The position numbers were made by a program, and so were the translations under genes. Below are positions 8,542-61,736 of a stretch of 64,000 bases of DNA, in pieces. Source of the stretch: Caldilineaceae bacterium (GTDB lineage Bacteria; Chloroflexota; Anaerolineae; Caldilineales; Caldilineaceae); assembly GCA_011523365.1 (NCBI GenBank), contig WTGY01000110.1, forward strand, positions 1-64,000. The letters are read 5' to 3'. A model generated the notes under the pieces. The model ran no database searches. It had not been told where the DNA came from and saw only the letters and a list, made by a program, of their open reading frames with translations. Position 1 is the first letter of the stretch. Every line of letters starts with the position of its first letter.

Positions 8542-8660
8542 TGGCCGCACGTCTTGAGGCAACTGTTTCCGCGTAACCGCTGTGATATGTTCTGTGCGCG
8601 TACTGTGCGTGGTCTGCCTAGATCCGGAATGACGGAGTGTTCAGTTTGTCGATCTGAGTG

Positions 8661-9010
8661 AGTGCATCCCAGATTAGGGGTGGGAACAGTCTGGCGGGAA
8701 AAAGTGCCAGCGGTGGCTGGAGTCTTTTGCCGTCTTTGTGCGAGACGCAGTGCAGGCGCCGGGCCCGGCCGTACGGCGGAGTCCGTCGGTTGGGGAGGGT
8801 GCGAGAGCACAAGGCCGGCAGCTGCGGGGACCTGATGGGACTGGCGGGACGTGGTCTGGCTGGACACCTTCAATTAGGCACCTGTTACGAATATCGACAC
8901 CCGGTCGAGTAGGCATTAGGGGGGGGCGTTGCGGGGGCGGAGCCCCCGCACAAGGGAGGGCCGAATAGGCCCGACCGCCCAAAACTGCAGTGGTTAGTGG
9001 TTAGTGAAAG
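8661..9010 (+). repeat. Dispersed repeat, copy A, with cloverleaf-like core
   Basis: This intergenic stretch (the gap is 8542-9149) shares long near-identical segments with 50637-51005 and parts of 19970-20185 and 61525-61635. The 5' part (8661-8905) carries no credible gene. The core at about 8921-8981 has an outer stem (GGGCG with CGCCC), hairpin 1 (8930-8938 with 8942-8950, loop GGA) and hairpin 2 (8958-8962 with 8968-8972). It ends in short direct repeats of the type CAGTGGTTAGTG. The remaining 8542-8660 and 9011-9149 hold no gene. An inverted repeat TGAAT-N6-ATTCA lies at 9065-9080, upstream of the sulfatase. Confidence 0.9.
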
Positions 9011-19856: not shown

Positions 19857-19969
19857 CCGGTATCCTGGTTCTATTGCGGCGGGAATCCAATGCTTGGTGG
19901 AGAATTCTACCGCAGACAGTTTCGAGGGCAAAGAGAAAGGGCATTGGGAATCCGCACAACTGCCGGCGA

Positions 19970-20185
19970 CAGGGCAGGCAGCTACGGGGATTCGATGGGA
20001 CTGGCGGGACGTGGTCTGGCTGGACACTTTCGATCAGGCACCCGTCTCCAATGTCGACACACGGTCGATGAGGCATGGTGTAGGGGGGGCGTTGCGGGGG
20101 CGGAGCCCCCGCACAAGGGAGGGCCGAATAGGCCCGACCGCCCAGAAATGCAGCGGTCAGTAGATAGTGGTCAGTGGTCAGAGAA
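19970..20185 (+). repeat. Dispersed repeat, copy B
   Basis: This copy lacks the 5' half seen in copies A and C but keeps the GGCGGGACGTGGTCTGGCTG region and the core. Hairpin 1 is 20094-20101 with 20105-20112, followed by the GGGCC/GGCCC hairpin and the CCGCCC closing arm, then the GGTCAGTGGTCAG tail. The next 150 bp (to about 20330) still align with the sequence after copy C (for example GGACTGGACATGGC), so the unit may extend into the promoter of the M20 peptidase gene. It fills most of the gap 19857-20370. Confidence 0.88.
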
Positions 20186-20295
20186 GGCGCATCGTCTGCC
20201 TCAGAGCTTCAGAGGGACTGGACATGGCCCTGGTGCGACCCGAGGTAAAAGCGAGTTCGCCGCCATTTGGGGATGCACTCGCGTGAGCGTTTCTC

Positions 20296-50419: not shown

Positions 50420-50636
50420 CAATCAGGAGCATGGCTGTTAGCAGAAGACGGCCAATGGCGAATTATGCGGGCGGGCAGGACATTTGTGGCCCAACACATC
50501 GGGAGGTCGACTCCCTGGACGGGAATTCTTGAGTTCAATCAAGACGGGCCTAGGACCTAGCGGGTTGTCTCTTTGCAAGTCGCTAATTCAAGGTACCTTA
50601 ATTGCGAGCTTCTTTCAACCCCCTTTCCGGTAGAGG

Positions 50637-51005
50637 GTGCGTCACAGATTTGGGGTGGGGATAGTCTTGCGGGTAATCCACGGCGGTGGCTGAGATTGTC
50701 TAACGTTATTTGGCGAGAAGAAGTGCAGGCCCCAGGGCCTGGCCTTACGGTGGAGTCCGTCAGTTGTTGAGGGTGCGAGGGCAGGAACAAGGCCGGCACC
50801 TACCGGGATCTGATGGGACAGGCGGGACGCGGTCTGGCTGGACACCTTCGATTAGGCACCTGTTACGGATATCGACACCCGGTCGACTTGGGATGTTGTA
50901 GGAGAGGGGGCGTTGCGGGGGCGGAGCCCCCGCACAAGGGAGGGCCGAATAGGCCCGACCGCCCAGAAAAGCAGTGGTCAGTGATTAGTGGTCAGTTGTC
51001 AGAGA
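50637..51005 (+). repeat. Dispersed repeat, copy C
   Basis: The fullest match to copy A, including the 5' part (GGAGTCCGTC, GAGGGTGCGAG, AAGGCCGGCA, GCTGGACACCTTC, AGGCACCTGTTACG, ATCGACACCCGGTCGA) and the core, with hairpin 1 at 50915-50922 and 50926-50933 and the CAGTGGTCAGTG tail. Sequence to about 51160 aligns with that after copy B. The whole gap 50420-51316 contains no gene; the promoter of the BFN gene lies at its end. Confidence 0.9.
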
Positions 51006-51184
51006 CTGCATTTGGTCTGTATCAGAGTTGATAGCGGACTGGACATGGCTTCGATGCTAGCCGAGGGACGGGAAAGTTCAACCCAATATTGGGATACGTC
51101 TGCGGCAGACGATCATCAGGACACGGGCGGCATCCAGTGCCAGAATATGCCTGATCGGGCGGACCCCGGAATTGAAATTTCACT

Positions 51185-61373: not shown

Positions 61374-61524
61374 TGACGGGTAGACTCCGGTGGACCCCAG
61401 TCTTGGGGCGAGAGAAGGCGGGCACAAGGTCTGCTCCTGAGGTAGTCTCGGCTGGTGGCTTCGCGGCACGACGTGGGTGAGCCACCGGTGGGACAGGGAG
61501 CTCGCCGGCGACGCGTCGCCAACG

Positions 61525-61635
61525 TGGCATGGCATGGTGTAGAGGGGGGCGTTGCGGGGGGGAACCCCCCGCACAAGGGAGGGCCGAAGGCCCGACCGCC
61601 CAACTGCAGTGCTCAGTTGTTTGTGACTAGTGGCA
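61525..61635 (+). repeat. Dispersed repeat, copy D, with a compensated hairpin
   Basis: Only the core and tail are kept. Hairpin 1 is GCGGGGGG (61554-61561), loop GAA, CCCCCCGC (61565-61572); the loop-closing pair is G-C where copies A, B and C have C-G. Hairpin 2 has a 3-nt loop (GGGCC-GAA-GGCCC). The closing CCGCCC arm and a CAGTGCTCAG tail follow. The rest of the gap 61374-61904 holds a promoter (61737-61765) and no gene. Confidence 0.85.
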
Positions 61636-61736
61636 GGGTCTTTGGTCGGGGATGGAAGTGAGGACTGGTTAGTGGTTACCTAAGTTCTGCAGACTCGTGC
61701 CACTGTTTTGGGATGCACGTCCGACCATGGTTTCCT

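Follow-up and report, generated by a model that had tools for sequence, protein, structure and literature searches.

Four copies (A to D) of a dispersed repeat, all on the plus strand, lie in the window, i.e., the whole 64-kb stretch of DNA that we analyzed. All of them had been claimed in the initial annotation and their positions proved real; the extents given were incomplete, as the true unit is a MITE that measures about 467 bp in copy C (Table 1). The common orientation had likewise been recorded correctly and was left uninterpreted there, an important clue. Copy A lacks the 3' inverted repeat. Copy C, whose end was read from the sequence, is flanked by CCGGTAGA and GCGGCAGA, a decayed 8-bp target duplication with six of eight bases matching. 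In copy D, the 5' repeat GGTGGACCCCAGTCTTGGGG (61389-61408) is weak (16 of 21 bases) and the 5' end was inferred by eye; its core shows the differences described before, i.e., a hairpin 1 closing pair changed from C-G to G-C and a shorter hairpin 2 loop. The tail that follows the core (8986-9007 and 20152-20181) varies in length and consists of either a drifting seven-base GTCAGTG repeat or a purine tract of the GAGAGAG type.

Table 1. Repeat copies and their cores in the 64-kb window.
Feature	Position	Strand	Remarks
Copy A, MITE-1	8660..9007	+	5' terminal inverted repeat GAGTGCATCCCAGATTAGGGG, both arms, core, GTTAGTG tail
Copy A core, outer stem and two hairpins	8922..8981	+	covariance model R1, 82.4 bits
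Copy B, MITE-1 without 5' module	19969..20280	+	3' inverted repeat GGGGATGCACTC at 20269-20280
Copy B core	20085..20144	+	covariance model
Copy C, full MITE-1, ~467 bp	50635..51101	+	5' repeat GGGTGCGTCACAGATTTGGGG, 3' repeat TTGGGATACGTCT
Copy C core	50906..50965	+	covariance model
Copy D, diverged MITE-1	61389..61720	+	3' repeat TTTTGGGATGCACGT, ends at 61720
Copy D core, hairpin 1 closing pair G-C, short hairpin 2 loop	61545..61602	+	covariance model, 86.0 bits

With copy A as query, the 5.67-Mb genome to which the window belongs (214 contigs) gave 427 candidates, and the best 40 of these 427 were all at least 83% identical. A 36-base core pattern found 110 forward and 104 reverse matches, compared with none in a reversed control; the repeat is hence far from chance. 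With a shorter exact pattern, 239 cores were counted in this genome and between 335 and 0 across the genus. In total the genome holds about 280 cores, i.e., 239 of one hairpin type and 41 of a variant type. Covariance model R1 found the core to be present in 16 of the 17 species of this genus of the Caldilineaceae (Chloroflexota), whose members we take from their record names to be sponge-type symbionts, and in none of 29 genomes from other genera of the family. The repeat thus extends far beyond the four copies. Phages, plasmids and viral contigs yielded nothing except one chance coding match. Copies are intergenic in 255 of 257 cases. Many draft contigs of four genomes (G000, which is the window's own, G001, G003 and G009) begin or stop inside a core, and the repeats help explain assembly breaks at these sites in such genomes.

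When copies were aligned together with their surroundings, sharp ends appeared. The type found in the window's genome, MITE-1, is about 460 bp long (median 461 bp) and has inverted ends GGGTGCATCCCA and 8-bp target duplications; its 5' end reads GGGTGCATCCCAGATTTGGGG and its 3' end CCCCATTTTGGGATGCACCC, and several copies have identical 8-bp flanks, e.g., TTCAACTC, CAATTGCC and GAGGAAAG. Sister species carry MITE-2, which has the same core, a median length of 300 bp and GTAACTACTAAGCC at its ends; AACAGAGA and CTGTTGAG are examples of its 8-bp duplications. Both types thus possess terminal inverted repeats, identical 8-bp flanks occur in many copies (decayed in copy C), and neither type has a transposase gene of its own, with potential trans partners of the same ends found among ISKra4 and IS66 elements. 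About 60% of the sampled cores have no recognisable end pair, and many are mosaic or decayed. From these sequence features it is well supported, and in our view very probable, that the repeats are MITEs mobilised by DDE transposases. The suggestion of a non-autonomous mobile family without a transposase was borne out by the inverted ends, the 8-bp duplications and the missing gene.

Several derivatives accompany the family. Two loci (L028, 1263-1365, and L254, near 1500-1600) hold MITE-1 derivatives of about 100 bp with intact ends and no core, the one at L028 with a perfect 8-bp duplication. Arm plus core also recurs in direct tandem arrays of up to seven copies, with a repeat period of roughly 170-207 bp, at L056, in G011 at 5.106-5.107 Mb and in G015 at 4.1358-4.1362 Mb. 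Several MITEs contain or adjoin another short palindromic repeat, GGGGCAGGCACAAGGCCTGCCCCTAC(CGG) (L060; L171, 10.7 kb; L186, 1.7 kb); this second repeat looks REP-like, with GTAG at one reverse-strand end, though no Y1 transposase was found.

Two insertion sequence families have matching ends (ISKra4 at L284 and L276, IS66 at L225 and others). The IS66-family element is 1569 bp long, encodes a 501-aa transposase (PF03050, NF033517) and has the ends GTAACTACTAAGCC, identical to those of MITE-2; it lacks the core. Six G015 copies of this recently active element are 99.9-100% identical and have 8-bp duplications. An ISKra4-family element (NF033572, E 2e-73) has MITE-1-type ends, and in its copy L284 in G002 both end sequences are identical to those of MITE-1; this partner was found in related species and was not located in the window's own genome. 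Because MITE ends match insertion sequence ends and target duplications are present, we infer that the MITEs are mobilised in trans by ISKra4 and IS66 enzymes.

A RAYT/TnpA-like partner had been envisaged instead. Y1_Tnp (Y1/HUH, RAYT-type) was absent from all 17 genomes of the genus, whereas 5 of 14 controls were positive; the DDE enzymes of the ISKra4 and IS66 families are the likelier partners. Like REP/BIME with RAYT, the repeats comprise hundreds of palindromic intergenic copies with mosaic arms and occasional tandem arrays; unlike them, they have no GTAG tag, no Y1 transposase and 8-bp target duplications, where REP/RAYT insertion proceeds without duplication. Single-strand transposition of the REP/RAYT or IS200/IS605 type would account for a fork-linked orientation, which is described for that group (PMC5371812). 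The missing enzyme and the perfect 8-bp duplications with inverted ends, which are DDE signatures, contradict it, and we consider it extremely improbable.

The core common to both MITE types comprises 58-60 bases, with an outer stem GGGCG/CGCCC, a hairpin 1 GCGGGGG...CCCCCGC and a hairpin 2, joined by conserved unpaired TT, ACAAGGGA and GA. It is far better conserved than its carriers, with 96% identity between MITE-1 copies versus 72% for the rest, and 93% versus 70% in MITE-2. Among 36 distinct cores, 97% of cells pair and six pairs change on both sides; 19 double-changed cells were observed against a shuffled mean of 2.7, and none of 500 shuffles reached the observed number. The underlying alignment was fitted to the covariance model and leans towards the structure; cores were taken mostly from contiguous stretches, as selecting loci by the pattern GGGAGGGCC biases the count. 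Hairpin 2 has been rewritten in full, its three versions being GGGCC/GGCCC, GGCCGC/GCGGCC and GGGCGC/GCGCCC; the latter two together account for 125 cores in G015 and 131 in G009, and for 41 in the genome of the window. The earlier claim that the structure itself is selected is hence supported by the double changes and the rewritten hairpin, and there is good support for the core having a function at the level of structure. Folded as DNA, the two core strands have similar energies (-22.0 and -21.6 kcal/mol), so that energy alone is silent on which strand matters.

Of 150 cores scored in G011, a complete genome (OY282376.1), 145 form two orientation blocks that match the GC-skew replichores, i.e., minus from 0.11 to 2.68 Mb and plus elsewhere. 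In 10,000 random orientation assignments never more than 106 agreed. GC skew switches near 0.077 and 2.727 Mb, and core orientation changes at the same places; a dnaA motif search near the switch found nothing. Three of the five exceptions cluster at 4.01-4.10 Mb. With strands named from GC skew, the G-rich core strand of G011 is on the leading-strand side and thus has the same sequence as the lagging-strand template. Draft genomes agree: with contig-start copies excluded, adjacent copies on one contig share the strand in 22 of 22 cases in the window's genome and in 45 of 53 in G009. Orientation thus follows replication, as in fork-directed transposons, and 164 of 196 copies with enough flank follow the local skew. 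The idea that hairpin 2 variants insert the opposite way was dropped: a few in G015 did, and the first nine among the genome-wide matches listed follow the blocks.

Replication, not transcription, is the main reference for this orientation, since 26 of 28 copies still follow skew when both neighbouring genes are antisense. Genes exert some pull: where skew and neighbouring genes conflict, 26 copies follow skew and 14 follow genes. The core might alternatively be a structured RNA (UTR element, sRNA or terminator) riding on mobile elements, as its covarying stems with G-U wobbles, its intergenic location and a downstream gene in sense for 18 of 26 G011 copies would allow. However, Rfam gave no covariance-model match to the core (the best weak one was chance, and the window gave only a tRNA), a T-run is absent after the core, the flanking sequence varies between carriers and copies follow replication even between antisense genes. 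An ordinary regulatory RNA is therefore disfavoured and the structured-RNA reading improbable; compared with the "unnamed RNA element" of the initial annotation, a function at the DNA level is more likely, as copies are oriented with replication and not with genes.

The very strong polarity in G011 and the highly conserved junction ACAAGGGA would also suit a polar chromosomal motif used by the host (KOPS-, Chi- or primosome-site-like), which MITEs have spread and host use keeps polar. We regard this as quite improbable, given that copy numbers differ greatly across the genus, where some species have hundreds, G002, G006 and G016 have 4-8 and G004 has none, and that enrichment of the polar motif towards the terminus was not significant (80/142, p = 0.15).

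The transposase families that appear to move the MITEs leave the shared orientation unexplained. Of 25 IS66 copies, 12 agree with skew, which differs from the cores (p = 0.0002), most of these copies having only about 1 kb of flank. Among orientable core-less MITE-1 elements two of four follow skew, four usable elements being too few for a control.

The main rival to orientation at insertion is selection afterwards: ordinary MITEs would insert both ways, and wrong-way copies would be lost because, in that orientation, their strong hairpins or G-rich strand hinder the fork or are deleted. This accounts for the unbiased IS66 elements and fits the stable folding of both core strands; moreover, older copies agree better with skew, as 15 of 16 MITE-2 with decayed duplications follow it compared with 23 of 33 with intact ones. 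The lower agreement of intact MITE-2 could reflect recent rearrangements or selection. In the genome G015 (OX638330.1) cores form more than two orientation blocks, rearrangements hence probably occurred. At 0.97-1.14 and 1.75-1.96 Mb, core blocks and GC skew have flipped together, which points to large inversions. In a stretch of positive skew at 3.37-3.69 Mb, seven of the eight minus copies have recognisable ends and duplications, whereas only one of the eight plus copies does (p = 0.005, post hoc). The simplest reading is that a putative recent inversion changed the fork direction here and newer insertions follow the new direction. This pattern favours orientation set at insertion, with the comparison post hoc and the inversion putative; selection is at odds with intact-ended copies sharing one direction against the old skew. 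It also leaves the core as the best conserved part unexplained, and since the strands fold almost equally, a strand-specific hairpin cost is not obvious. We hence consider selection after insertion unlikely.

Orientation at insertion belongs to a reading that we find probable as a whole, i.e., trans-mobilised MITEs with a shared, structure-selected core whose orientation is coupled to the fork when they insert. The gene-less MITEs would move by cut-and-paste with DDE transposases supplied in trans, an ISKra4-family enzyme for MITE-1 and an IS66-family enzyme for MITE-2 of the sister species. Both contain the common core of 58-60 bases, which folds and is maintained by selection on its structure; the core may act when the lagging-strand template exposes it as folded single-stranded DNA. 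The core could couple insertion to the replication fork, directly or via a host fork protein, and orientation would then be fixed upon insertion by the fork direction at that time. We advance tentatively the hypothesis that the orientation is caused by the core and is set when insertion takes place.

Transposons with enzymes that themselves contact the fork are known to have a fork-linked orientation. In the present repeats such orientation seems to accompany a short DNA module and not an enzyme, because two MITE families with different enzymes share the module and IS66 elements have neither module nor bias. In IS200/IS605 and in Tn7 with TnsE, orientation follows replication direction as it does here (PMC5371812); unlike in these, the partners are of DDE IS66 and ISKra4 types, and IS66 copies are unoriented. 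Bacterial MITEs such as RUP, NEMIS/Correia, ERIC and Nezha are similarly short, gene-less, intergenic and of high copy number, with inverted ends, target duplications and ends in common with a full insertion sequence. In contrast to them, two MITE types with unrelated ends here share one covarying structured core, and copies are locked to replication direction. The Bordetella BRE, which emerged from an RNA-structure screen, is likewise a short GC-rich intergenic repeat with tandem copies; it is reported not to be co-oriented with the replication fork, and the passages considered describe no mobile ends (PMC3110155), whereas the present MITEs are fork-oriented and have such ends. More speculatively, we propose the core as a portable module for coupling to the fork: MITEs belonging to two unrelated transposase families would have captured this signal of folded single-stranded DNA, and with it DDE transposition that is otherwise unoriented would insert in step with the replication fork. 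If true, the core would act in cis as a signal that couples insertion to replication. Core orientation moreover allows replication direction and past inversions to be mapped readily in draft genomes.
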